Source of the DNA: Denitratisoma oestradiolicum
GTDB lineage: Bacteria; Pseudomonadota; Gammaproteobacteria; Burkholderiales; Rhodocyclaceae
Reading direction: 5' to 3'
Assembly (NCBI RefSeq): GCF_902813185.1
Contig: NZ_LR778301.1
Span: 806,001 to 870,000 of the forward strand
DNA length: 64,000 nt
A model generated the notes under the pieces. That model did not search any database. It saw only the letters and a list, made by a program, of their open reading frames with translations, and had not been told where the DNA came from. Shown here in pieces: positions 48,626 to 61,685 of the stretch (its first letter is position 1; the number at the start of each line of letters is the position of its first letter). A program made the position numbers and the translations under genes.

Positions 48626-48672
48626 CTTAGTGCATTTGCATCATGCCACCCTGTACCAATCCCGACATACTT
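48626..48672 (+). promoter_or_regulatory. LuxR-type box and promoter A (TonB-receptor gene)
   Basis: CTTAGTGCATTTGCATCATG at 48626-48645, an imperfect 20-bp dyad with TGCA-TT-TGCA at its centre. Exactly 20 nt later is CATACTT (48666-48672), a plausible -10. The dyad centre would then be near -42.5. Three further copies at 51383, 56921 and 61666 have the same spacing. Confidence 0.8.
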
Positions 48673-48732
48673 TTCCGAGAAATAAGAAATCCCGACTGTG
48701 GTGGATGATTTTCGTCAGTCAAAAGGTATCGC

Positions 48733-48761
48733 TTCCCTATGGGTATCCCACCTATAGGGAA
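48733..48761 (+). other. Leader hairpin just before the TonB-receptor ribosome site
   Basis: TTCCCTAT (48733-48740) pairs perfectly with ATAGGGAA (48754-48761) around a 13-nt loop. It ends 6 nt before the strong Shine-Dalgarno GGAGGAGG, so it could modulate translation or mRNA stability. There is no T-run, so it is not a terminator. Confidence 0.45.
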
Positions 48762-48781
48762 ATTCTCGGAGGAGGAAATCG

Positions 48782-51139
48782 ATGTTCAAGAAAAAAATGA
48801 TACACACGATGATTTGCGCTTCGTTCATGACCTGTGCGCCTGCCTGGGCAAGCGGTGGGGCAGCGCTTGAAGAGGTCATCGTGACCGCCCAGAAAAGGGC
48901 GGAGAACGTACAGGATGTGCCGATTTCCATCCATACCCTGGATGCGGCTGCCTTGGAAAAAAATGTCATCGTGAGCCTGACGGACATGCGGGCCCAGGCC
49001 CCTGGCGTCACCATCAACAACTTTCCCCTTGCCCAGGAGTCAACGCTGCTTGTGAACATCCGGGGTAGTCAGCCATTTAGCGCAGCTGTCACATTGGATC
49101 AACCCGTGGCCATACATCTGAATGGCGTTTACTTGGCTCGATCCGATGGCCTCAACTCCGTGACTGCTGCTGACCTGGACCGGGTGGAAATTCTCAAAGG
49201 TCCTCAAGGCACCCTGGTCGGCAGAAATGCTGCCTCCGGCGCCCTCAATATTGTCACTACCAAGCCTAGCTTTGATGGATTTCACTTCAAGCAACAAGTG
49301 ACTGTCGCCACTCGCGATCAGTTGACGACCAAGACAGCCGTCAATCTCCCGATTACCGATGCCCTGGCTGCGCGGATCTCGTACCTGCACAAGTCCATTG
49401 ATGAGCCCGCCAATGGCATCAAGAATTCCGGCCCCGGGCCGGAATTGGGAACCTCACAAACTGATGCCTGGCGCCTGGATTTCCGCTGGAAGCCCGTAGA
49501 TACGGTGACTGTCGACTATGGTTACGATCACACCAAGATGAAGCTGCAGGACCAGCCCTTCGTCTGCCTGGGTGCTACCTCGATCCTGGCCAACAAGGCG
49601 GATTGTTCTGCCGATTACCGGTCCTCCCTGACGGGGGCATCAGGACAGCCGGACAGCGAAGTCGAGGTGGAAGGGCATACCCTCAATGTGGACTGGGTGG
49701 CCAGCGATACCCTGACGGTGCGCTCCATTACGGGCTATCGGAAACTGACCGAGACCTATTACAAGAACATGATTTACTCGCCAGGGAATTACGGGTATAT
49801 CGCCGGGCCGGTTACCAGCCTGCCTCCGGCCAGTTCCGTCACGATGCCAATGCCCGGCTCAAGTGTGCCGAGTATCGTGAATCAGGATCAGATCTCCCAG
49901 GAATTCCAGTTGGTGGGGCAGCCGTCCCAATTCTTCAACTACACCACCGGCATTTATTATTTCGAAGAGAAAGGCTACGAAGCCCCAACGCAATATTCAT
50001 ATCGACCTTCAGCAAATTCGGCGACCCTTATCCGGCAAAAGCAGGCATGGGCTCGTAACGAGTCATGGGCGGTCTTTGGGCAGTTCAGCTGGCGGCCGGA
50101 TGTGCTGTCGAGAAAGTTGGAGATCGTTCCCGGCATCCGCTATACCCGAGATACTCGCGATGTGCGCGTGATTGATAACGGGCTTGTTTCCTACGCCATT
50201 GGCGCCAGTAGCTATACCCAAACCTTCGCTACGGCTGTGCAAAGCGGCAATGGCCATCTGGAGGGAAGCAAGGTCACTCCAGGGCTTTCGGTGCTGTATC
50301 ACTTCGACGATCAGATGATGGGCTATGGAAAGATCGTCAGGGGGTACCGCACGGGAGGATTCAACATGTCCGATGGGAACCTGACCCGTGCGCTTTCAGG
50401 GTTTTCGCCTGAAACACTGACGTCCCAGGAACTCGGTTTCAAGGGACAGTTCTTTGAGAGTCGCTTGCGGACCAATCTTGCTTACTTTGTGATGGACTAC
50501 AAGGATCAGCAGATGCAGATCGCAGATCCATCAATCGTCGGCCGCTATTCCGCGATTATCGCCAACGCCGGAAAGTCCCAGATCAAAGGCTTTGAATTGG
50601 ATGTGGCCTATGCGTTAACCAAGAATCTGCGCCTGGGACTCAATTGGACACGCCTGGACCTGGAATACAAGAAAGTCGTCGCTCCCGGGACCTCCACCAA
50701 CGTGGCTTCCCGCTTCTACCGGAAACTGCCCAAGAACAACTACACGGTCAATGTCGATTACCGGTTTCCGGACCTGGGGCTCCCCGGGAAGCTTGAAGCC
50801 CACTTGGACTATACCCACATGGATGCCCAGTCGGGATCGACGACCGATGGCATCACCCAGGGGGGCGTCTTCGCCGGCTATACGCCGACCCAGTTTGCCG
50901 AACTGGACATGACGCCGGCCTACAGCGTTTGGAACGGTCGTCTGGCTCTGAATGGGATAAGCACTGCCCCCAACAGGCAGGGCGATGTTTCTGTGGGGCT
51001 CTGGACCAAGAACCTAACCGACAAGAAGTATCTCTCCTATGTCATGGCAGGCGCTCCGTTTGGAGGCATCACGGGAACAAGTCTGGGCCTTTGGGCGCCT
51101 CGCCGTACCGTTGGTCTTGATGTGATTTATCGCTTTTGA
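48782..51139 (+). CDS. TonB-dependent outer-membrane receptor
   Basis: A 785-residue receptor. A signal peptide ends near Ala23 (TCAPAWA-S). The TonB box is EEVIVTAQ at residues 30-37, and a plug domain follows (VQDVPISIHTLDAAALEK...). A 22-strand barrel ends in GLDVIYRF with a terminal Phe. It belongs to the group of TonB receptors common in Sphingomonadales and in degraders of steroids or other hydrophobic compounds, not to the classical siderophore receptors. A strong GGAGGAGG precedes the ATG. It stands alone between promoter A and a terminator, and is predicted to import the substrate of the surrounding pathway. Confidence 0.93.
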   Translation: MFKKKMIHTMICASFMTCAPAWASGGAALEEVIVTAQKRAENVQDVPISIHTLDAAALEKNVIVSLTDMRAQAPGVTINNFPLAQESTLLVNIRGSQPFSAAVTLDQPVAIHLNGVYLARSDGLNSVTAADLDRVEILKGPQGTLVGRNAASGALNIVTTKPSFDGFHFKQQVTVATRDQLTTKTAVNLPITDALAARISYLHKSIDEPANGIKNSGPGPELGTSQTDAWRLDFRWKPVDTVTVDYGYDHTKMKLQDQPFVCLGATSILANKADCSADYRSSLTGASGQPDSEVEVEGHTLNVDWVASDTLTVRSITGYRKLTETYYKNMIYSPGNYGYIAGPVTSLPPASSVTMPMPGSSVPSIVNQDQISQEFQLVGQPSQFFNYTTGIYYFEEKGYEAPTQYSYRPSANSATLIRQKQAWARNESWAVFGQFSWRPDVLSRKLEIVPGIRYTRDTRDVRVIDNGLVSYAIGASSYTQTFATAVQSGNGHLEGSKVTPGLSVLYHFDDQMMGYGKIVRGYRTGGFNMSDGNLTRALSGFSPETLTSQELGFKGQFFESRLRTNLAYFVMDYKDQQMQIADPSIVGRYSAIIANAGKSQIKGFELDVAYALTKNLRLGLNWTRLDLEYKKVVAPGTSTNVASRFYRKLPKNNYTVNVDYRFPDLGLPGKLEAHLDYTHMDAQSGSTTDGITQGGVFAGYTPTQFAELDMTPAYSVWNGRLALNGISTAPNRQGDVSVGLWTKNLTDKKYLSYVMAGAPFGGITGTSLGLWAPRRTVGLDVIYRF

Positions 51140-51239
51140 ACCGCATTCCGGTCCGCAACGGATAGGGTTTATGAAATAGGCCCCTGTTATGCGGTATCGA
51201 TCTCCTCTCGGCTAAATTTCTGCTGTCCCGCTGAGTTGG

Positions 51240-51265
51240 CCCGCCCGAGAGGGCGGGATTTTTTT
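51240..51265 (+). terminator. Rho-independent terminator after the TonB-receptor gene
   Basis: Stem CCCGCCC/GGGCGGG with loop GAGA and a run of seven T. It separates the receptor transcript from the next operon. Confidence 0.9.
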
Positions 51266-51382
51266 GATGTGCCCGGCAGGGAGCACTTACTTGTGGCTCG
51301 ATCGGCACCAAGAACTTCGATCGCGACGGAGCCATAGTCCAAGGCTTCCAGTGTGTAGATCGAATTCATCACCATTGCTGGA

Positions 51383-51429
51383 CTTAGTGCGTTTGCATCA
51401 TGTGTCGCCATGCCGATATCCGCATACTT
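51383..51429 (+). promoter_or_regulatory. LuxR-type box and promoter B (KAS III-like operon)
   Basis: CTTAGTGCGTTTGCATCATG at 51383-51402, then 20 nt, then CATACTT at 51423-51429. The ketosynthase start is 67 nt beyond the -10. The box is identical to copy D (61666) and differs from copy A at one base. Confidence 0.8.
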
Positions 51430-51495
51430 CATCCATGGTCAATACATGACGTTTGGCGACTTGTTGATTGTTGGTGATGATTTCGAGCGACTGTA

Positions 51496-52530
51496 ATGAA
51501 ACCCAGCGTAATGGTTAAAGCGTCTATCAAGTCTTATAGCTGCTACTTTCCCGGCGGAAAGCTAACCAACGAGCAGCTTGAGCAGGAGTTGGGGGTATGG
51601 AGTGCGGCGAAGATTTTTGATCGTACCGGAATCGCGGTACGACCGATTGCGGCACCCGATGAATGCGCTTCGGACTTGGGGTTTGCGGCGGCACAGCAGT
51701 TATTTGCAGGCGGAGCATGTGTGTCGTCAGATATCGACTTTCTGCTTTTCTGCTCCCAGAGCCCCGATTACTTTCTGCCCGCGACCGCCTGCCTCCTGCA
51801 ACATCGCCTCGGATTGCGGACGGACTGCGGTGCCTTTGATCTCAATCAGGGATGTTCCGGCTTTGTGTACGGTCTGGCAGTGGCCAAGGGCCTGATAGAG
51901 GCTGGTGCGGCGAAAAACGTACTGCTGATTACTGCGGATACGTACACAAAATACATAAACGCCAAGGATAGTGGCGTGCGTACCCTGTTTGGCGACGCGG
52001 CTGCGGCCACCCTTATAAGCGCGGAGGATGCTGATGAGGGTCTTATCGGGCCCTTCGTCTTCGGCACTGACGGTAGTGGTGCTCCCAATCTGATCGTTCC
52101 CGCGGGCGGAGCCAGACATCTAATATCACCCGAGACAGTGGTGGAACGCAAAGACCCGGATGGAAGTTGTCGCTCACTCCAGAATCTTTACATGAATGGG
52201 CGGGAGGTTCTGGACTTCGTTCTGAGGGAGGTTCCTAAAGCCGTGGACCAGCTCCTCCTTAGATGGGGGCATTCGATCGAGAACGTGGATCACTTCATCT
52301 TCCATCAGGCCAACAAGTTCCTGCTGGAGCAACTGCGCGAAAAACTCAATATCCCCGCAAGCAAGTTCTGGATGCAGTTGGAGACATGCGGCAATACCGT
52401 CTCCGCAACCATTCCGATCGCGTTACAGAATGCATCGAAGCAAGGCGTTATCCGCAGCGGGGACAACGTCATGGTCATCGGGTTCGGCGTTGGCTATTCG
52501 TGGGCCGGCGCCATGATCAGGATTCAATGA
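51496..52530 (+). CDS. Beta-ketoacyl synthase III-like (FabH-family) condensing enzyme
   Basis: A 344-residue thiolase-fold enzyme with the full KAS III triad: Cys120 in DLNQGCSGFVYGL, His270 in FIFHQANKF and Asn300 in CGNTVSATIP. KAS III enzymes join an acyl-CoA to malonyl-ACP or a related extender; in this setting it is beside CoA-transferases and not beside fatty acid synthesis genes, so it may condense or cleave a pathway-specific beta-keto intermediate. An ATG at 51514 is an alternative start. First gene behind promoter B. Confidence 0.88.
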   Translation: MKPSVMVKASIKSYSCYFPGGKLTNEQLEQELGVWSAAKIFDRTGIAVRPIAAPDECASDLGFAAAQQLFAGGACVSSDIDFLLFCSQSPDYFLPATACLLQHRLGLRTDCGAFDLNQGCSGFVYGLAVAKGLIEAGAAKNVLLITADTYTKYINAKDSGVRTLFGDAAAATLISAEDADEGLIGPFVFGTDGSGAPNLIVPAGGARHLISPETVVERKDPDGSCRSLQNLYMNGREVLDFVLREVPKAVDQLLLRWGHSIENVDHFIFHQANKFLLEQLREKLNIPASKFWMQLETCGNTVSATIPIALQNASKQGVIRSGDNVMVIGFGVGYSWAGAMIRIQ

Positions 52531-52623
52531 TGAATGGGCACATACACATAGAAAAATGAGTCATTTGCGATCCGCAACATTGCGGTGAGCTGCCACTGCT
52601 TGTACCTCAAAGGAGCAATGCCA

Positions 52624-53226
52624 ATGTCTGAAAACATGAAAACACCCCGCATTCCGCTGCTTTCCGCAGAAGAGATTGCAAAAATCGGTGTCGAAGCCGG
52701 TATTCCGCCAGAGCTGCACGATCGCAATATTTTTCGCATCCTCTTTCAGAGCCCCCGTGTAGCCAAGGCACTTCAGGGGCTGCTCTACGCACAGCTTTTT
52801 GATTCCGCCTTCGATGGCAGGCTACGCGAGCTGGTCATCATGCGTATCGGTTGGAAAACCAACTGTGAATACGAGTGGGTTCAGCACTGGTACACCGCAT
52901 TGAAAGCCTTCGGCTGTACGGAGCAGGATCTGCTGGAGGTTCGGGATTGGCAAGCCTCGACGCATCTCGGCGCTGCCGAAAAAGCCGTCCTTGCGGCAAC
53001 GGACGAGGTCATATCCACCGGGACAATTTCCGACGAAACGTGGGCACGTTGTGAGCAGAATCTCGAGGGAACAGAGGCGCGCCTGGAGCTTGTATTTGCA
53101 ATCGCCACCTGGCACGCTGTTTCTTTGATGCTGCGCTGCATTAAGGTTCCCGTCGAAGCGGATACGGTTTCCTGGCCACCTGATGGATGCTCTCCGGAAG
53201 ACTTTGCGCGCGGAGTATCGCGATGA
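52624..53226 (+). CDS. Carboxymuconolactone decarboxylase (CMD)-family protein
   Basis: A 200-residue alpha-helical protein. The CMD core is [23 protein letters not shown], with Glu, Cys and His in the family positions. It has one cysteine here and not the redox CxxC of AhpD, so it resembles gamma-CMD-like catabolic members. The ATG at 52624 is chosen: AAAGGAG lies 8 nt upstream, against 2 nt for the ATG at 52618. Its stop overlaps the scoA start (ATGA). Confidence 0.85.
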
Positions 53227-53924
53227 TAAACAAAGTTGTCGCTAGCGCTGCTGAGGCCGTAGCTGACATCGAGGATGGTGCGACGCTTGTCGCCGGCGGC
53301 TTCGGTTTGTGCGGGATTCCTGAAAATCTGATCCGCGCTTTGGTGGACAAAGGTCCAAAGAACCTCACGGTGGTCTCCAACAACTGTGGGGTGGATGACT
53401 TCGGCTTGGGGCTCATGCTCGCGGCTCGACAGATCAAAAAGATGGTCGCGTCCTACGTTGGAGAGAACAAGAACTTCGAAAAACAGTTCATGAGTGGCGA
53501 GCTCGAGGTCGAGCTCAATCCCCAAGGGACATTGGCGGAGAGGCTTCGAGCCGGAGGGGTCGGTGTCCCGGCCTTCTACACGCCGACAGCCTACGGCACG
53601 CAGCTTGCGGAAGGTAAGGAGACTCGAGAATTCAACGGGCGTCCTATGGTGATGGAACACGCCATCGTTGGCGACTTCGCGCTGGTGAAAGCCTACAAGG
53701 CCGATCGCCATGGCAACCTCATCTATCGCAAGGCGGCTCGCAACTTCAATCCGCTCTGTGCGATGGCGGGCAGGATTTGCATTGCCGAGGTGGAGGAACT
53801 GGTCGATTTTGGCGAGCTTGATCCCGATCTCGTGCATACACCTGGGATCTTCGTTGATCGTGTCGTCGTCGGAGACCGATTCGAGAAACGTATCGAACAG
53901 CGTACGACACGTCCGCGCCCTTAA
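53223..53924 (+). CDS. scoA: 3-oxoacid CoA-transferase subunit A
   Basis: A 233-residue alpha subunit of the SCOT class I CoA-transferase. It has [22 protein letters not shown] near the N-terminus, [16 protein letters not shown], and the [12 protein letters not shown] and [18 protein letters not shown] segments. With subunit B it would move CoA from succinyl-CoA to acetoacetate or a similar 3-oxoacid. Its start overlaps the CMD gene stop. Confidence 0.92.
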
Positions 53925-53945
53925 AAACCAATACGGAGATTCTCA

Positions 53946-54602
53946 ATGCCCCTGAATCGTCAAGAAATTGCCATGCGCGCGGCCCAAGAGTTGCGCGACG
54001 GCTACTACGCAAACCTTGGGATCGGCATTCCAACGCTGGTAGCCAACTACATCCCGAAGGAGATGGAGGTCGTCTTTCACTCGGAGAACGGCATTCTTGC
54101 CTACGGGGCATTTCCCTTCGAAGGTGAGGAAGATGCCGATCTCATCAACGCCGGCAAACAAACGGTGACCGAGTTGCCGGGAACGGCCTACTTCGACTCG
54201 TCGCTGTCATTCGGCATGATTCGCGGAGGACACATCGATCTGACCATACTCGGGGCCATGCAGGTGGACGCCCGAGGCAGCATCGCCAATTACATGATCC
54301 CAGGCAAGATGGTCAAAGGGCCGGGCGGAGGGATGGATCTGGTGGCCGGTGTCAAGCGGGTCATCGTCACCATGGAGCACGTCGCCAAGAACGGAGAGAA
54401 AAAAATTCTCAAGAAATGCAACCTGCCGCTCACAGGGGTTGGCGTGGTCACCCGCATCATCACGGACTATGGGGTGATCGATGTTGCCCGTGATGGTCTG
54501 GTTCTGGTAGAGAAGGCGGCAGACCTCACCGTCGAAGAAATTCAGCGCGCCACCGAGGCACCGCTCATCATATCTCCCTGCCTGCGCGACATCACAGTAT
54601 GA
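53946..54602 (+). CDS. scoB: 3-oxoacid CoA-transferase subunit B
   Basis: A 218-residue beta subunit with the catalytic glutamate in FHSENGILAYG (Glu47), the LGIGIPTLVANYIP segment, FDSSLSFGMIRGGHIDLTILGAMQVD and KGPGGGMDLVAG. It begins 21 nt after scoA. Together they give a complete SCOT-type enzyme able to activate acetoacetate, the expected product of the BKACE enzyme encoded at 60613. Confidence 0.94.
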   Translation: MPLNRQEIAMRAAQELRDGYYANLGIGIPTLVANYIPKEMEVVFHSENGILAYGAFPFEGEEDADLINAGKQTVTELPGTAYFDSSLSFGMIRGGHIDLTILGAMQVDARGSIANYMIPGKMVKGPGGGMDLVAGVKRVIVTMEHVAKNGEKKILKKCNLPLTGVGVVTRIITDYGVIDVARDGLVLVEKAADLTVEEIQRATEAPLIISPCLRDITV

Positions 54603-54836
54603 GGGTGGCCAGCGAGTAAAGGTGGGGAAGCCGGGCCGGGTCGCGAAGGAGTGGGATAGCTGGGAGAAATGCGGGGTCTGCTGTCCTCACCATGCAGTCG
54701 CCAATGAGTTCGCCGCACGGCAAGGAATCAATGTGTCCGGATTACAGTTTTTCTTCAATCCTTTCGATAAATCAAAGACGTTGATCCTTGCTCATCGGAT
54801 GTACTAGGATTTCTCGTCAACCGTCACCGTATTCGG
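54603..54836. other. Intergenic gap before the LuxR-type regulator
   Basis: 234 bp with no LuxR-type box of the A-D kind, no clear terminator and no convincing gene. The regulator may be transcribed from its own weak promoter here or by readthrough from promoter B. Confidence 0.45.
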
Positions 54837-55958
54837 ATGGGGCCATCCATGGCGCGTACTCTCGAACAACTGCTTGGCTCGCTCTATGGGAGCATCCTCG
54901 ACGATTTGCCATGGCTTGCCTTTCTGGAAGCGTTGGAGCGGCATCTCCCCTGCCATCACGGCACCATGGTGTTGCGCCGTCCCCGTGACGGGGATGCGGG
55001 GATTTTGGTCGCGAGCCCCAGCAACAATCCGGCACTGGCTGCGTTGCAGCGGGAACACTACCGAGACTCTCCGTTCCTGGATCTGCCGGAAGGCAAGATA
55101 TGTGTTCTCACCGAAAGTGAGCTGAAGAGGCAGCACACCACCTACTATCAGCACTACATCAGGCACTTCAGCTTGGTCACCGAGCTGATCGGCGTGAATA
55201 TGATCGAGCCCCGTACCGGTATGATTTTCAGGTTGCGCGCCGCACGCATCGACGGTGAGCCCGGCTTTGGCGAGCGCGAACGAAAGATCATCGAATCCTT
55301 GCTGCCGCACCTTCGAACTGCAATCGCGCTCTATGCGCGCAATGCGCTGCAGGAGTACCGTTTGAATGTGCTCGACGAGACCGCAGGGCAGGCCGCCATC
55401 GGTTCCGGTGTGCTCGATGATAACGGCCGCATACTGATCAAGAACATGGTATTGGACCGGGTGCTTCTGGCCCAGGATGGATTCTATGCCCGAGACGGTG
55501 TGCTCCACTGTAGCGACCCCAAGGACGATCGTGCGTTGCGTATGTTGTTGAGCCGCTTTGGCGCTGGCGTGCCGCAACCGGCGGGAGACCTGACCATGAA
55601 GGTCCGTCGAGCCGGCGGCGATCGCTTCTGGAGTCTGCTGGCGCATCCTTCGCCGCTCCGGCCCGGCGTGGACGAGAAGACCCGGTCCCCCGTGATTGTG
55701 CTATTGCGTGACGCGAGCCGTACCCCCGATGTGACCGAAAGCGCACTGATCGAACTGCTGGGGCTGACGCGTGCCGAGGCAGCGCTTGCGGTGCGACTCG
55801 TAAAAGGGCAAAGCCTCATAGATTCGGCAGCGGCACTTGGCATTTCGCGCTTCACCGCGCGTACGCAGCTCTACTCGATCTTCGATCGCACCGGAGTGCA
55901 TCGGCAGGCGCAACTGGTAAGCCATATTCTGAGCATGATGAAAACAGTCTGGGGTTGA
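54837..55958 (+). CDS. LuxR-type transcriptional regulator (non-acylhomoserine-lactone N-terminus)
   Basis: A 373-residue regulator with a LuxR/FixJ helix-turn-helix at about residues 304-365 (LLGLTRAEAALAVRLVKGQSLIDSAAALGISRFTARTQLYSIFDRTG region). The roughly 300-residue N-terminus does not look like an autoinducer domain or a receiver; it may be a PAS/GAF-like ligand sensor. This architecture is common near catabolic clusters. It is the only regulator in the accessory region, and the four conserved 20-bp dyads around it are the size and position expected for a LuxR-type activator. ATG 54849 is an alternative start. Confidence 0.9.
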   Translation: MGPSMARTLEQLLGSLYGSILDDLPWLAFLEALERHLPCHHGTMVLRRPRDGDAGILVASPSNNPALAALQREHYRDSPFLDLPEGKICVLTESELKRQHTTYYQHYIRHFSLVTELIGVNMIEPRTGMIFRLRAARIDGEPGFGERERKIIESLLPHLRTAIALYARNALQEYRLNVLDETAGQAAIGSGVLDDNGRILIKNMVLDRVLLAQDGFYARDGVLHCSDPKDDRALRMLLSRFGAGVPQPAGDLTMKVRRAGGDRFWSLLAHPSPLRPGVDEKTRSPVIVLLRDASRTPDVTESALIELLGLTRAEAALAVRLVKGQSLIDSAAALGISRFTARTQLYSIFDRTGVHRQAQLVSHILSMMKTVWG

Positions 55959-56037
55959 GTGGCGCACGCAGGGGAATCGCATGAACGGCTGCAAGAATGG
56001 CGCATTCAAACGTGTACCTTCATCCCCCAAACCCATC

Positions 56038-56078
56038 CCCACCCCGCCCCTCCCCTCCCCTTGAAGGGGAGGGAGCTG
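56038..56078. repeat. C-rich inverted repeat between luxR-type and PLD-like genes
   Basis: CCCCTCCCCTTGAAGGGGAGG forms an inverted repeat resembling, but not identical to, the 33-bp units at 17100 and 23328. It lies between the convergent ends of two genes and has no T-run. Confidence 0.6.
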
Positions 56079-56082
56079 AGTT

Positions 56083-56757
56083 TCATGCAATATGCGCCGC
56101 TGAATCAAAGATGATCGGATTGAAGTTGAAATCGGTCTGGGTATTTTCGGCCGTTAACACTCTTGCAACCATGTCGTCGAGGTAGTCGGCCAGGTTTCGA
56201 AGACCGTTGTCCGGAATCGATGTGATGGTCAGCGGAATGTTCCCATTTTCCCGTTGCAACGAATGGGACAGGTAGTAGCCGGCGATTGGCTTCAGCTGTG
56301 CGTCCCGGATGAGGATCATCCGGTCGTGTAGTTCATCGGGGGGGAGGCCCATGACCTGCAGTCGTGCACCATGGGCGGTATCCGCCCAGCTTCGGCATGC
56401 GGATTTCAGATTGTCGATGCGCGATGGTGGCAGCGATTTCGGTTCCGGTCCCATGCCCCAATCGTGAAGCAGCCGTTCGGGCCAGTCCGAAAGAGGCGCC
56501 TCCGGCGTGTGCTCGGTAAGCACCAGGTAGGTGCTGTCAGGCACACCGTATTGGTTGATCAAATTGATTCCAACATCGTCCATGTATGGATCCACCCAGG
56601 TGATTTGTGCGGATCGATGGTGGGCAAACAACCTCCGGAGCCATTCCACGAACTCCGACTGCGGTAGCCAGAGAGGTCGTGCGCGGGGTTTATCGTGCTC
56701 GCCAATCAGTTGGCCCATCCGGATGTCGGAGGGCACCCCGTCAAGAGTCTGCGCCAT
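56083..56757 (-). CDS. PLD-like protein of unknown function
   Basis: A 224-residue protein. It has ITWVDPYMDDVGINLINQYG (residues 52-71), then ELHDRMILIRD (His144) and GYYLSHSLQ, a pattern seen in diverged phospholipase-D-like nuclease-fold domains where HxD replaces the full HKD. No second HKD half, signal peptide or membrane helix was seen. A clear AAAGGAAG ribosome site precedes the ATG. Promoter C with its LuxR-type box lies upstream, so it belongs to the regulon even though it is not an obvious catabolic enzyme. Confidence 0.65.
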   Translation of the reverse strand: MAQTLDGVPSDIRMGQLIGEHDKPRARPLWLPQSEFVEWLRRLFAHHRSAQITWVDPYMDDVGINLINQYGVPDSTYLVLTEHTPEAPLSDWPERLLHDWGMGPEPKSLPPSRIDNLKSACRSWADTAHGARLQVMGLPPDELHDRMILIRDAQLKPIAGYYLSHSLQRENGNIPLTITSIPDNGLRNLADYLDDMVARVLTAENTQTDFNFNPIIFDSAAHIA

Positions 56758-56893
56758 TGCTCTTCCTTTCTTAAAAACATCACTTCAGCTGCCGAAATGG
56801 ATGTAGTGAAGTCGCCATGCCTTTCAGACGGTCCGTGGCTGTACCCCCTGCCATGCTTGCTTCCGGCTGTGGCGGAACACTCACCCGCGTATG

Positions 56894-56940
56894 AAGTATG
56901 CAGAGGTCGTCGTAATACGACATGATGCAAATGCACCAAG
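56894..56940 (-). promoter_or_regulatory. LuxR-type box and promoter C (PLD-like gene)
   Basis: On the minus strand, CTTGGTGCATTTGCATCATG at 56940-56921 is followed after exactly 20 nt by CATACTT at 56900-56894. The 5' leader to the PLD-like gene would be about 130 nt. One base (G for A at position 4) differs from copy A. Confidence 0.78.
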
Positions 56941-56995
56941 TGTGCCGGGCTATATTTCGCTACACTTCAACGTCTAAACCTTGCGGGAATCGCCG

Positions 56996-57736
56996 TCAGT
57001 ACATGTGCAGGCCACCGTTGATATTGAGGGTGGCGCCGGTCATGTAGCCGGCGATATCCGAGGCCAGGTAGGCGCAAAGCCCACCGATTTCCTCTGGTGT
57101 GCCCATGCGACCGGCGGGGATGGTGGCGATGATGGAATCGCGCACTTCCTGCTTGATGGCCATGACCATCTCGGTGGCGATGTAGCCGGGGGCGATGGCA
57201 TTGACGGTCACGCCCTTCTTCGCCACTTCCTGGGCGATGGCCTTGGTGAAGCCAAGGATGCCGGCCTTGGCCGCAGAATAGTTGGCCTGACCGAACTGGC
57301 CCTTGATGCCATTGAGGGAGGAGATGTTGATCACCCGGCCCCAACCCCGCTCCGCCATGGCTTCCAGCACCTGGCGGGTGACGTTGAACACGGAATCCAG
57401 GTTGATGGTCAGCACCGCATCCCACTGGGCCTTGTCCATCTTGCGGAACACGCCATCCCGAGTGATGCCTGCGTTATTCACCAGCACATCGACCGGACCG
57501 ATCTCGGCCTCGATCTTGCGAACCATGGCAATGCATGAGTCGAAATCCGACACATCGCCCTCGGCAATATGGAAGTCAAAACCCTCCGCCCTGATTTTTG
57601 CCAGCCATTCGTCCTTGGGTGGGAAATTGGGCAGGCAGTTTGCCACCACGGTATGGCCGCTCTGGGCAAGGGCCTTGCAGATCGCGGTACCAAGCCCCCC
57701 CATGCTTCCTGTCACCAATGCGACTCTCTTTGTCAT
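56996..57736 (-). CDS. phaB: Acetoacetyl-CoA reductase (short-chain dehydrogenase)
   Basis: A 246-residue SDR with the cofactor loop VALVTGSMGGLGTAI, VNNAGITRD, catalytic Ser in INISSLNGIKGQ and the YSAAK motif with Tyr and Lys. The ending ATLNINGGLHMY is typical of PhaB. It reduces acetoacetyl-CoA to 3-hydroxybutyryl-CoA with NADPH. It is the last gene of the minus-strand operon that starts at promoter D, next to a decayed copy of itself. Confidence 0.92.
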   Translation of the reverse strand: MTKRVALVTGSMGGLGTAICKALAQSGHTVVANCLPNFPPKDEWLAKIRAEGFDFHIAEGDVSDFDSCIAMVRKIEAEIGPVDVLVNNAGITRDGVFRKMDKAQWDAVLTINLDSVFNVTRQVLEAMAERGWGRVINISSLNGIKGQFGQANYSAAKAGILGFTKAIAQEVAKKGVTVNAIAPGYIATEMVMAIKQEVRDSIIATIPAGRMGTPEEIGGLCAYLASDIAGYMTGATLNINGGLHMY

Positions 57737-57801
57737 TTCTCGTTCCTCATTCCCATAAATAAGTCATTACTTTGCCCAGGGAAGTGGGCTGTCTCAGTCG
57801 A

Positions 57802-58048
57802 TCAGTACATGTGCTGACCGCCGTTGATGGAAATATTGGCCCCGGTCACAAAGGCAGCCTCTTCGGACGCCAGATAGGCACTGAAGCCATAGCCCATGTG
57901 GTTCATGGTTTGCAGCCAGTCCCTGGCCTTGGCATTGGTCGGGCTATGGCTGGTGACTACCCTTGTAGCCCAAGGCTGCCAGCTTGACGCATATCGCCTC
58001 ACCCAGACCTCCCATGCCACCGGTAACCAATGCAACTCTACGCATCAT
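57802..58048 (-). pseudogene. Remnant of a second phaB-like gene
   Basis: The N-terminus is readable from 58045 as RRVALVTGGMGGLGEAICVK but stops at TAG (57946-57944). The next piece, in another frame, is the following PhaB segment SPTNAKARDWLQTMNHMGYGF. This joins directly to the C-terminal SAYLASEEAAFVTGANISINGGQHMY end, so about 165 codons including the catalytic Tyr/Lys are missing. A frameshift plus a large internal deletion make this a dead copy. Confidence 0.88.
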
Positions 58049-58101
58049 CGATTCCTTCGAATTTCAAGATTTCTTTGTGCTCCGGGAGTAGTCCCAGAGA
58101 T

Positions 58102-60525
58102 TCATCCCAATCCTTTCGGGACAGTGCCGATGACCTCTTTGGTGGCAAGCAAAGCAATCTCATCGTCCGAGAGCCCCAAATCGTCGCGCAGAATTTCATG
58201 GTTATGTTCGCCCAGGGTCGGAGCCCTAAATCGGTGCTCTCCATTCGGCCCCATGGACTGGAGCCAAGGCCATCGGGGATAGCGCCGCACGCCTGTCAGC
58301 GGATGGTCGAGTTCCTGAAAGAACTTGCGAGAAATTAGGTGAGGTTCACTGGGGATGTTCGGCTGGGTAAGCACGATCGCTGCCGGAATCTCAACCTCGC
58401 GGAGGGCGGTAATGACCGAGCTTGCCGTAATCCGGCTTGTCCACTGGGAAATCAGTGCATCGACTTCATCGTGGTGCGCCAGCCGCCCCTTCAGGGAGTC
58501 GAAGCGACCATCCAGTGCCCAGGTGTTCACAGGGGACATCTTCCGGAATCGATTCCAGTCGTCGTCGTTTCTGATGGAAAGAGCCACCGATTGCCCACAT
58601 GAGCAACGATAGACGCCTTGAGGGGCCATCGTATCGCTACGGTTTCCCATCCTCCCCACAATCTTGCCCGTTACGGAATAGGTGATTACCTGTTCTGCCG
58701 TCAGGCATGCGCCGACTTCCAACTGCGGTACCTCAACCAACTGGCCTTGACCCGTGCGCTCGCGGTGAATCAATGCCGCCTGTAACGCCACCACAGCATG
58801 CATGCCGACGAATACATCTGCATAACCACCCAGATTGACTGGCGGACCATCGGGGTTTCCGGTCACCCAGGACATCGCACTAACTTGTTCCAATGGCATG
58901 CCAAAGCTAGTGAAATCTCGCCATGGTCCTTCAAGACCAAACCCTGGGACGCGAACAGTAATCAGGTTCGGATTGATCTCTTTGAGGCGCTCGGCGGTGA
59001 GTCCGAAGTTGTCCATTACCCGGGCCGTAAAATTCTCGATCACGACGTCGGCCTTTGCCAACAATTTCTCGAAGAGTCGCATTCCCTCAGGAGCATCAAG
59101 ATTGAGTGTGAGATTGCGTTTACTCAGGTTGGTATGCTGGTAAATGCTGCTTCGTTCGTACCAGTCTGGACCTTCTTCCGGGTAGGCGCATTGAAACCGG
59201 AAAGCGTCTGCGCGCTGGATGGATTCCACCTTGATGACGTCTGCGCCGTAGGCGCCCAGATAGCAGCTGATATAGGGCCCGGCCCAAAATATTCCCAGAT
59301 CTATCACGCGCAATCCTTCGAATGGGAATTCGCCATTACCTAGTCCCTTTGATTGGTACGTGGAGTCCCTTGGGCTCCAGGTCGTCGATCCAGTCACCGG
59401 GTTGTCTGCTCCCAATCGGGGAGCCCCTTTGCGCAAGCTTGGGGGTGTGTGTTCGAGTCGATAAGGGAAGCTGGGGCGGATGAAGTCCTCGTCGGGATCG
59501 CGGATGAAGAATGACCTGGCTTTTAGCTGCGGTAGCTCCAGAATGGTTTTTCCATTGGAAATGGGCACACTGGGAATTCGCATCGCCTGGCAGATATCCA
59601 CGACATCCTCAACGGTCCGCTCCATGAGCCAGGGTTCGATATCGCGGAAGAATCCATCAAAGTCCGGTCCGCCATAGGTGATTTCCATCTGCTTGGGAAT
59701 GTACTGAGGCACATCGAGCAGGTGACAGCAATCGATGAAATGCTGGCCGGTCAACGCATTGATGCTGACCAGACCATCCTTGCAACGGACTACCCCAGGG
59801 AATGGGAAATGTCGTTCTGCAGGAATTCCCCAACCCAGGGAGGTCAGTGTCTCTATATGCAGCCAAACTGCGCCTAGGCAGCACACCAAGCTCTCTTGTT
59901 TGGATACATCAAAGTAAACTGCCTTTCCTGCTACGGACGCCATGGAATAGGCTGTGAGGGCAGCAGCGGCCGCATAGATGCCGACGTTGTAGTCCGGAAT
60001 CCGGCCACCGGCCTGTAGCAACGGGAGCTCCGGAACATGGTGATTATTCACCCATTGCGCACTGGCCTGCACCGTCAGGTCGCTAGCGGGTTGACCAGAA
60101 TAGGGGCCTGTTTGGCCAAAGTCTGAAATTCTGATCAAAGCAATCTTTGAGTTGGCCTTCTCGAATTCATCGAATCCCAGGTTGAACCCTTCGAGTACGC
60201 CAGCCCCCAGATTTTCAATGACCAGATCGGCAGCTTCCACCAGGTCGAGAAGTGTTCTTTTCCCTTCTGCGGAGTTGAGATCACATTCGATGCTTCGCTT
60301 GTTGGCGTTCAGGTAGCGAAACAGCGTGCCCTTGCTCGGGTCATCCTCATCATTGGGAAAGGCGCCTGCCTGGCGCAGTGGATCACCGGTCAGCGGAGGT
60401 TCCACCTTGATCACATCCGCGCCCAGATCGGCAAGCAACTTGCTGCAATACGGGCCCGAGATGCCTTGTCCGATCTCTACAACCCGAAGATGCGCCAGGG
60501 CGTTGGGCATTTGTGTGTTCTCCAT
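58102..60525 (-). CDS. Tandem-fused class III (CaiB/BaiF) CoA-transferase
   Basis: An 807-residue protein made of two full Frc-family domains. The first starts LRVVEIGQGISGPYCSKLLADLGADVIKVEPP, the second (about residue 405) LRVIDLGIFWAGPYISCYLGAYGADVIKVES. Each has the following NKRSIECDL or SKRNLTLNL segment. At the catalytic position (QD in formyl-CoA transferase) both halves appear to carry Glu: FDVSKQES and VEVPQLEV. It would activate a carboxylic acid by CoA exchange. Ordinary family members are about 400 residues and work as interlocked dimers. Second gene of the promoter D operon. Confidence 0.9.
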   Translation of the reverse strand: MENTQMPNALAHLRVVEIGQGISGPYCSKLLADLGADVIKVEPPLTGDPLRQAGAFPNDEDDPSKGTLFRYLNANKRSIECDLNSAEGKRTLLDLVEAADLVIENLGAGVLEGFNLGFDEFEKANSKIALIRISDFGQTGPYSGQPASDLTVQASAQWVNNHHVPELPLLQAGGRIPDYNVGIYAAAAALTAYSMASVAGKAVYFDVSKQESLVCCLGAVWLHIETLTSLGWGIPAERHFPFPGVVRCKDGLVSINALTGQHFIDCCHLLDVPQYIPKQMEITYGGPDFDGFFRDIEPWLMERTVEDVVDICQAMRIPSVPISNGKTILELPQLKARSFFIRDPDEDFIRPSFPYRLEHTPPSLRKGAPRLGADNPVTGSTTWSPRDSTYQSKGLGNGEFPFEGLRVIDLGIFWAGPYISCYLGAYGADVIKVESIQRADAFRFQCAYPEEGPDWYERSSIYQHTNLSKRNLTLNLDAPEGMRLFEKLLAKADVVIENFTARVMDNFGLTAERLKEINPNLITVRVPGFGLEGPWRDFTSFGMPLEQVSAMSWVTGNPDGPPVNLGGYADVFVGMHAVVALQAALIHRERTGQGQLVEVPQLEVGACLTAEQVITYSVTGKIVGRMGNRSDTMAPQGVYRCSCGQSVALSIRNDDDWNRFRKMSPVNTWALDGRFDSLKGRLAHHDEVDALISQWTSRITASSVITALREVEIPAAIVLTQPNIPSEPHLISRKFFQELDHPLTGVRRYPRWPWLQSMGPNGEHRFRAPTLGEHNHEILRDDLGLSDDEIALLATKEVIGTVPKGLG

Positions 60526-60612
60526 GTGCGAATATCAACCTGCGGGGCCGCCGGCCAAAGGCGACCCCGCATCGAGGAAAGGATTTGCCGGGATGGGCCG
60601 AAGGCCCAGTGG

Positions 60613-61578
60613 TCAATCGTAGGTGGTGGGGGTCTGCGAGAAGCCGAGTATTTCCCGGGCCTGCTCGGGGGTGGCGATTTCGCGGCCAAGCTCCCGGGCC
60701 AGCCGCACCACCTTCTCCACGAGCTGGGCATTGCTCTGAACCTGTTGTCCCTTGCCCATATACAGGTTGTCTTCCATCCCGGTCCGCACATTCATGCCCA
60801 TCAGGATGCCCATGGTCATGACCGAGGGTTGCCATGGTCCTACGCCCAGCACGGTCAGGCTGCAAGGCTTGGGTGCCGTTTCCACCAGATGGATGATCTG
60901 CTTGGGTGTCGGATAGCTGCCGCTCTGGAAGCCGAAGACGAGTTGGGTCAGATAGGGGGGCTTGAGAAGCCCCTTGTCGATGAGATTGTGCACAAGTGAC
61001 CAGCAGCCCGGATGGAAGACTTCGACTTCGGGACGCACGCCCTTATCCATCATGGCCTTGGCGTAGGTTTCCGTCATTTCATAGCCAAACGGTGCCACGG
61101 CTTCGAAGTTCACATCCTCCATGCGCCCGGCTTCCGGACGCTTCTTCATGATGAAACGGGTTGCCAGGGGGCCGATGTCGAGGCTCGCCGCTTCGGGGTT
61201 GGCGTCCAATGGTGCCAGGGCCTGGCTCAGGTCGGCGCCATAGCCGCCGCCGCAGGTGTTGTTGATGATGATCTTGGGGCACTTTTCCCGGACCTTGCGG
61301 TTCATGTTCCGGTAAACCGCAGAGTCCGTGCTCGTCTGCCAGGGTTGGCTGGGGACTCGGGCATGGAGGTGAACATAGGTGGCCCCGGCGTTGTAGCAGT
61401 CGTAGGCTTGCTGGGCCTGCTCCTCCGCGGTTTCCGGCAGGTTGGGATTGCTCTCCTTGCCATGCACGCCGCCTGTCATGGCAACGGAAATGACCAAAGG
61501 CGGCAGTTTGCTCTGCGCCACCGCGTTTACCCATTGCTTCTCATTGCTCGGGTCCCAAATGTCCTGGCTATATGTCAT
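60613..61578 (-). CDS. Beta-keto acid cleavage enzyme (BKACE, DUF849)
   Basis: A 321-residue TIM-barrel enzyme of the Kce/BKACE family. LVISVAMTGGVHGKESNPNLP, the zinc-ligand pair in YVHLHARVP (His70, His72), IINNTCGGGYGADL, and a Glu near EVEVFHPGCW fit the family zinc site. BKACEs react a beta-keto acid with acetyl-CoA to give acetoacetate and a new acyl-CoA; the side chain is not predictable from sequence alone. The ATG at 61578 has GAGGAG about 9 nt upstream. First gene behind promoter D. Confidence 0.92.
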   Translation of the reverse strand: MTYSQDIWDPSNEKQWVNAVAQSKLPPLVISVAMTGGVHGKESNPNLPETAEEQAQQAYDCYNAGATYVHLHARVPSQPWQTSTDSAVYRNMNRKVREKCPKIIINNTCGGGYGADLSQALAPLDANPEAASLDIGPLATRFIMKKRPEAGRMEDVNFEAVAPFGYEMTETYAKAMMDKGVRPEVEVFHPGCWSLVHNLIDKGLLKPPYLTQLVFGFQSGSYPTPKQIIHLVETAPKPCSLTVLGVGPWQPSVMTMGILMGMNVRTGMEDNLYMGKGQQVQSNAQLVEKVVRLARELGREIATPEQAREILGFSQTPTTYD

Positions 61579-61638
61579 AACTCGTGCTCCTCTAATGGAA
61601 ATCAAAAATGTCCCGGGGACTCGTAACGCCCGTAGGGA

Positions 61639-61685
61639 AAGTATGAAGAGGCGGGGAGGGCGTGACATGATGCAAACGCACTAAG
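61639..61685 (-). promoter_or_regulatory. LuxR-type box and promoter D (BKACE operon)
   Basis: On the minus strand, CTTAGTGCGTTTGCATCATG at 61685-61666, a 20-nt spacer, and CATACTT at 61645-61639; the BKACE start is 61 nt further. It is the right-hand limit of the regulon. Confidence 0.8.

Follow-up and report, generated by a model that had tools for sequence, protein, structure and literature searches.

What reads a 20-bp dyad that stands, always at the same distance, before four promoters of one gene cluster? The question is raised by a stretch of 64,000 nucleotides (nt) from Denitratisoma oestradiolicum, here called the window, which spans positions 806001-870000 of contig C1 in genome G000 (4,293,412 bases, two contigs); coordinates are those of the window unless a genome is named. 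The dyad, described by the pattern CTTRGTGCRTTTGCATCATG, occurs in the window in four copies with 0 mismatches each, at 48626 (+), 51383 (+), 56921 (-) and 61666 (-), on both sides of a gene for a LuxR-type regulator. It is most probably the operator of this central regulator, which appears to join GAF-like, PAS-like and LuxR-type helix-turn-helix (HTH) domains, and of an 80%-identical paralogue, both predicted to activate class II-type promoters of a catabolic cluster. An initial annotation of this DNA had read the four sites in such a way; its facts are correct, and very probably so is its mechanism. What is new is the suggestion that the box is the regulator-specific member of a wider design, in which the distance to the -10 element is nearly fixed.

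Operator 1 (CTTAGTGCATTTGCATCATG, 48626..48645, +) lies ahead of a TonB receptor gene and is followed after 20 nt by its putative -10, CATACT (48666..48671, +). Operator 2 (CTTAGTGCGTTTGCATCATG, 51383..51402, +; putative -10 CATACT at 51423..51428, +) precedes a KAS III-like operon, operator 3 (CTTGGTGCATTTGCATCATG, 56921..56940, -; putative -10 CATACT at 56895..56900, -) a gene for a VPA1262 N-domain-like protein, and operator 4, again CTTAGTGCGTTTGCATCATG (61666..61685, -; putative -10 CATACT at 61640..61645, -), the operon of a beta-keto acid cleavage enzyme (BKACE). The four copies had been placed correctly by the initial annotation, as had the gap from dyad to CATACTT, which is exactly 20 nt at four of four sites, and the promoters do face genes of the cluster: the TonB receptor; KAS III-like, CMD and CoA-transferase; VPA1262-like; and BKACE, CaiB and a short-chain dehydrogenase/reductase (SDR). 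Allowing up to 3 mismatches still yields only these four sites in the window, where 0.05 are expected from shuffles. Compared pairwise, the dyads agree at 18-20 of 20 positions, the spacers at 6-10 of 20 and the 30 nt upstream at 5-12 of 30. The symmetry itself is imperfect, with complementary positions numbering 6 of 10 in operator 1, 7 of 10 in operator 3 and, counted by eye, 5 of 10 in operators 2 and 4; the half-site CnTnnTGCA that had been proposed holds, save that two of the four left halves have G as their ninth base.

Nine such sites from G000, together with four from a second Denitratisoma genome (G001, probably Denitratisoma sp. DHT3), give a set of 13 in which the anatomy of the element can be seen. 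NATRCT follows at N20 in 13 of 13 sites, 13 of the 20 dyad positions are invariant, including the block TTTGCA and the end CATG, and the promoter-proximal half is the more constant one. Also favoured are CYC directly before the -10 and T directly after the dyad, so that the claim of unrelated spacers, largely borne out by their low pairwise identity, was slightly too strong. If CATACT is the -10, the centre of the box would fall at -42.5; lux boxes are described as 20 nt long and as lying 42.5 nt upstream of the start (PMC7585371). With 17 nt between it and the -10, a hexamer matches TTGACA at 2-4 of 6 positions; the box therefore overlaps a weak -35. A sigma-54 reading of TTTGCA was rejected, as the GG element is missing at the right distance (by eye).

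Throughout G000 the dyad is found eight times at up to 3 mismatches, and its reversed-pattern control 0 times; a ninth copy, with 4 mismatches, was found by a local scan. The nine dyad-N20-NATRCT sites of the genome are the four in the window and five in a second, paralogous cluster within G000 positions 1149966-1168310, where they precede BKACE, a VPA1262-like gene, a KAS III-like gene, a major facilitator superfamily (MFS) gene and a TonB receptor. The four-promoter regulon that had been drawn as ending at 61685 thus stands as far as the window goes, but continues in this second cluster about 280 kb away. Cluster 2 has its own regulator, 80% identical to that of the window, and its other proteins are 80-99% identical to their counterparts except for the VPA1262-like protein (about 70%) and an extra SDR (58%). 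A stricter pattern (box core, N20 and NATRCT, one mismatch allowed) applied to 399 genomes of the order matched nine times in G000, once (at 1 mismatch) in G151 and in none of the other 397; over the three Denitratisoma genomes, G000, G001 and G002, it gave 9, 4 and 0 sites. G001 has one cluster and one regulator, 80% identical; its four sites surround this regulator and precede the genes that correspond to the four targets in the window. In G002 the best regulator homologue is just 42-44% identical. The dyad therefore tracks orthologues of the regulator, as the initial annotation had proposed to check, with two regulators for nine sites, one for four, none for zero and one stray match. A loose pattern, run over 101 genomes and discarded, produced noise, with matches in 101 of 101. 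As a side observation, the TonB receptor gene of G001 (G001:C1:242591-246064) is split by a transposase-like open reading frame (ORF), judged by eye, and its operator is kept.

The regulator ORF that had been named, 54837-55958 (+), is present, with orthologues favouring a start at 54849. Over the HTH, a profile built from 14 relatives matches LuxR/GerE-type chains of solved structure, with E-values down to 3.6e-5, and helices are modelled between residues 297 and 366; the two together identify a C-terminal GerE-type four-helix HTH, here placed at residues 306-359. The structure model (mean predicted local distance difference test score, pLDDT, 85.9; predicted TM-score, pTM, 0.61; 48 sequences) suggests a succession of GAF-like, PAS-like and HTH domains, its top fold matches being bacteriophytochrome and LOV-PAS chains, with VqmA and RhlR among those listed. 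Confidence in this domain reading is moderate, since whole-chain TM-scores are low (at most 0.35 among the best 50 fold matches listed). The N-acyl-homoserine lactone (AHL)-binding domain PF03472 was not found in the regulator, for which Pfam at E up to 1 gave only weak HTH matches. The regulator had been called solitary, and this holds in so far as a search for LuxI with PF00765 had matches in 0 of 2 genomes, its positive control also giving 0 of 14; it does not hold for the family, as the genome encodes six members at E up to 0.001.

Beyond the close orthologues, three loci with regulators 42-51% identical and with different enzymes were read (G1057, contig C13; G1034, C67; G002, C13), and a variant, TAGYGCATTTG, is recognisable at all three. 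It takes the form CGTAGTGCATTTGCCCGATG-N20-CACGCT in G1057, CCTAGTTCATTTGTCGGATG-N20-CATTCT in G1034, and TGTAGCGCATTTGTATGATG-N20-TAGCAT plus TTTAGTGTATTCGTCTGATG-N20-TAAACT in G002; as it stands before different enzymes, its presence seems tied to the regulator rather than to them. The best scores of the 13-site matrix at the three loci are 23.5, 14.6 and 11.3, against 15.8, 11.9 and 21.9 for the best of 40 shuffles each, so that by score alone the G002 locus does not exceed chance. With the same matrix, L082 (21.6) and L078 (19.1) stand out among 17 other distant loci, the remaining 15 scoring at most 11.0. The G1034 site and one of the G002 sites precede similar proteins, both with FGIPSQHNL (by eye).

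The nearly fixed distance is also seen across the wider family. The test set consisted of 40 regulator loci of the G311 family (373 kb), hand-picked from a list, and the controls of 20 stretches from other places in these genomes (380 kb); both were taken after a generalised GTCC..GGAC-like box had been set, which was loosened on earlier, overlapping sets of 20 and 69 loci. The 40 loci are not independent, many being orthologous, and the central 4 kb of five (L127-L131) had already been in the 69-locus scan, with no box with a -10 there. At a score of 9.5 the regulator loci hold 115 boxes, with a -10 at 19, 20 and 21 nt in 8, 11 and 2 cases and, for any one of 22 other spacings, in 0-2; the 56 control boxes give 0, 1 and 0, with 0-2 elsewhere. 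At 8.5 there are 799 boxes with 13, 24 and 14 at these three spacings and 0-4 elsewhere, compared to 720 control boxes with 4, 5 and 3, and 1-8 elsewhere. When dyads are collapsed at 15/20 identity, those scoring at least 9.5 leave 11 distinct dyads at 19-21 nt and 7 at the 22 other spacings (controls, 1 versus 5), and at 8.5 the peak stays, with 8, 8 and 9 at 19, 20 and 21 versus 0-4 (controls 4, 5 and 3 versus 1-8). Smaller sets are mixed: a box at N20 is present in three out of six short loci belonging to the G067 family and in one of six plasmid loci (L194, with a second box at N21), and a plasmid locus with a box at N18, L197, is among the other 8 of these 12 in which no fitting box was found at N19-21. 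Three further attempts were abandoned. An unsupervised pair search under relaxed limits found 30-41 pairs per spacing among the matches listed versus 17-22 in shuffles and was of no use; a perfect-dyad histogram over 18 distant loci was unconvincing, with 6 at N20 against a mean of about 3 elsewhere and 6 also at spacing 26; and a pure-palindrome scan of the 40 loci had no clear peak (29, 31 and 13 at 19, 20 and 21 nt, other spacings 16-36). The spacing signal depends on the sequence of the box; symmetry by itself does not bring it out.

The same geometry is met in a second regulator-operator pair. A 24%-identical paralogue of the regulator, G000:C1:1494955-1496058, is flanked by two copies of another dyad, and a search for CYRGTACCANNTGGTACYRG found four places in each of the three Denitratisoma genomes; each genome's single place with 0 mismatches, and a second with 1 or 2, flank the presumed orthologue. 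Six of six flanking copies are then followed by TAGCAT or TAAGAT, at N20 in four and at N21 in two, their orientation having been chosen to fit. It is mismatch rank and place, not raw number, that single out the paralogue's sites. Within G000:C1:1494782-1496906, GGTACCA..TGGTACC dyads with N20-TAGCAT stand before a flavin adenine dinucleotide (FAD)-dependent oxidoreductase-like and an MFS-like gene (genes by eye).

Several observations weigh against an activator operator of general design. The Pfam GerE match at residues 306-359 is sub-threshold, at 13.0 bits for a cut-off of 23.5. At the strictest score, 10.5, there are 19 boxes and 2 in the controls, with a -10 at 19, 20 and 21 nt in 1, 2 and 1 versus 0, 1 and 0; 16 of the 40 loci have no box at N19-N20 within the limits of a separate inspection, five of them (L128-L131 and L133) carrying the lower-scoring dyad CGTCRTCCGATCGGACTGCG-N20-TAGCAT; and scans for symmetry and N20 without the box sequence gave little. 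A second box at the G1034 locus, CTTAGTGCATTTGGTGGATG, has no -10 at N20. For CYRGTACCANNTGGTACYRG, reversed-pattern controls gave 4, 0 and 3 places, the raw counts being little higher in two of the three genomes, and G001 has two distant places with 2 mismatches, as many as its second flanking site. Lastly, the weak TTGACA match at a 17-nt spacer makes a repressor at an ordinary promoter possible.

The sites, their spacing, their occurrence together with the regulator and the spacing peak at other regulator loci are observed; binding, activation, ligand and start sites we infer as follows. A dimer of the regulator would sit on the 20-bp box, centred at about -42.5 over the weak -35 region, where it would touch RNA polymerase and switch on a promoter of the sigma-70 type whose -10 is CATACT. 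The trigger may be a pathway-related small molecule bound by the sensory domains, and the targets would be an outer-membrane receptor, transport, and enzymes for acyl-CoA and beta-keto acids. In the family at large, each regulator would have a box sequence of its own, nearly fixed at 19-21 nt from the -10.

Should the regulator bind the box and repress, it would sit over the -35 region until released by a ligand; the better-conserved proximal half does overlap an xTGxCA-like -35 hexamer, and a LuxR-type repressor of a steroid gene has been reported in Comamonas testosteroni (PMC8700777). This is nevertheless unlikely: repression does not call for the nearly constant distance between box and -10 that many regulators show, whereas activators in contact with polymerase would be expected to keep one, and the LuxR-type TesR/TeiR is described as a positive regulator. 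Far less probable is that the two-part promoter is read by another factor (a distant regulator, say, or an alternative sigma factor), with the LuxR-type gene as a bystander: the strict two-part spacing, the sole basis for it, would fit a promoter of the extracytoplasmic function (ECF) type, but the upstream part is a dyad, and boxes differing in sequence adjoin different family regulators in several gene contexts. That the sites are functionless leftovers of cluster duplication is scarcely credible, for although most genes of the two paralogous clusters encode proteins that are 80-99% identical, and the spacers at the two BKACE promoters are nearly so, flanks within one cluster are unrelated where the dyads agree, and variants occur in other genera with other enzymes.

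With activation by the regulator as the preferred reading, the type of box can be set beside the protein that would read it. Among the loci read, recognition helices that have Asn in the position of residue 335 are mostly paired with GTCC..GGAC-like boxes, and those of close relatives carrying Phe, Tyr or His there mostly with TGC/CGC boxes. Three loci are misfits, L082 having Asn with an ATAC box, L108 His with a CCC box and L162 Asn with a weak GTGC site, and the correlation with its exceptions is a lead, not a result. Gln or His at residue 340 as the sole determinant of the box was ruled out by L078 (Gln with a GTCC box). Tentatively, and with some doubt, one may extend the design to widespread GAF/PAS/LuxR-HTH regulators of hydrophobic-compound and steroid catabolism, TesR/TeiR included, which would share a 20-bp box 19-21 nt before the -10 and draw specificity largely from the recognition helix (residue 335). 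If true, targets and specificity of many orphan regulators could be read from sequence.

Known systems resemble this one in part. Like the lux box with LuxR, and like RhlR, it pairs a 20-bp imperfect dyad, centred about -42.5 from the predicted start, with a C-terminal LuxR-type HTH, and the modelled N-terminal fold is GAF/AHL-binding-like, RhlR being among the fold matches. Unlike LuxR and RhlR, the window regulator has an extra PAS-like domain, no LuxI was found in the PF00765 search described above, and the targets are catabolic and uptake genes; the box sequence itself we take to be unrelated to the lux box. VqmA, the PAS-LuxR-type receptor for 3,5-dimethylpyrazin-2-ol (DPO), is similar in joining PAS to a LuxR-type HTH and is among the fold matches, but it is not known to carry a GAF-like domain at its N-terminus, and its role differs. 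Many LuxR-type regulators lack a LuxI partner, and few of these have known targets and ligands. A nearly fixed box-to-(-10) distance lets targets be proposed from sequence, a box-reporter would be a clean readout for finding ligands, and similar boxes at many relatives suggest a general, readable control code.

The closest likeness in setting is to TesR/TeiR of Comamonas testosteroni and the regulator of the pdc cluster, LuxR-type regulators inside steroid catabolic clusters, with TeiR compared by description only; TeiR is reported to be a membrane protein that has kinase activity. A homologue of the pdc type is related (tblastn, 28% identity, E 6e-26). The homologue found on pNL2 adjoins a luciferase-like monooxygenase, as described for Saro_3594 and Saro_3595 (PMC12239570); it fits Saro_3594, the LuxR-like gene of the progesterone pdc cluster, and the same paper calls TesR similar to the pdc regulator. 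A scan of the pNL2 locus found no box at N18-21. In the open-access literature, parts of which were available, we met no operator for this regulator family, TesR/TeiR or the pdc regulator, which is no proof that none has been published. Relatives of the regulator also occur on plasmids, some amid steroid-type genes such as 3-oxosteroid 1-dehydrogenase and steroid delta-isomerase.

In G000, an MtmB-like methyltransferase and a B12-binding protein are encoded 4 kb beyond cluster 2 (G000:C1:1172246-1174348; L010:14246-16348) and fit the estrogen methyltransferase emtAB, of the emtABCD set whose products are reported to be more abundant in estradiol-grown cells (PMC7448270). With an estrogen-degrader genome and these genes nearby, the regulon becomes a candidate for control of the uptake or breakdown of steroids or their products. 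The linkage is not conserved, as the best match in G001 to the methyltransferase is just 29% identical and lies elsewhere in the genome. A 26%-identical relative occurs at 1186516 in G000.

The genes of the window cluster begin with the TonB-dependent outer-membrane receptor (48782..51139, +; Plug and beta-barrel domains), followed by a probable operon (51496..54602, +) of KAS III-like (51496-52530), CMD-family (52624-53226) and 3-oxoacid CoA-transferase A and B genes (53223-53924, 53946-54602). Past the regulator (54849..55958, +) lie, on the minus strand, the VPA1262 N-domain-like gene under operator 3 (56083..56757), a stretch at 56996..60525 with an acetoacetyl-CoA reductase-like SDR (56996-57736), the remnant of a second SDR (about 57800-58050) and a tandem class III CoA-transferase (58102-60525), and BKACE (60613..61578). 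A longer BKACE ORF, up to 61668, runs into operator 4; the extension is probably not translated, given a ribosome-binding-like sequence ahead of 61578 (by eye). The target set (TonB receptor, MFS, KAS III-like, CoA-transferases, BKACE and reductase) suggests that the cell takes up some hydrophobic acyl or keto compound and degrades it. The remnant of the second SDR (57700-58060, -) has an internal stop, its counterpart ORF being open in cluster 2 and in G001, and the cluster 2 copy of the VPA1262-like gene sits in a 619-amino-acid ORF that has no Pfam match.

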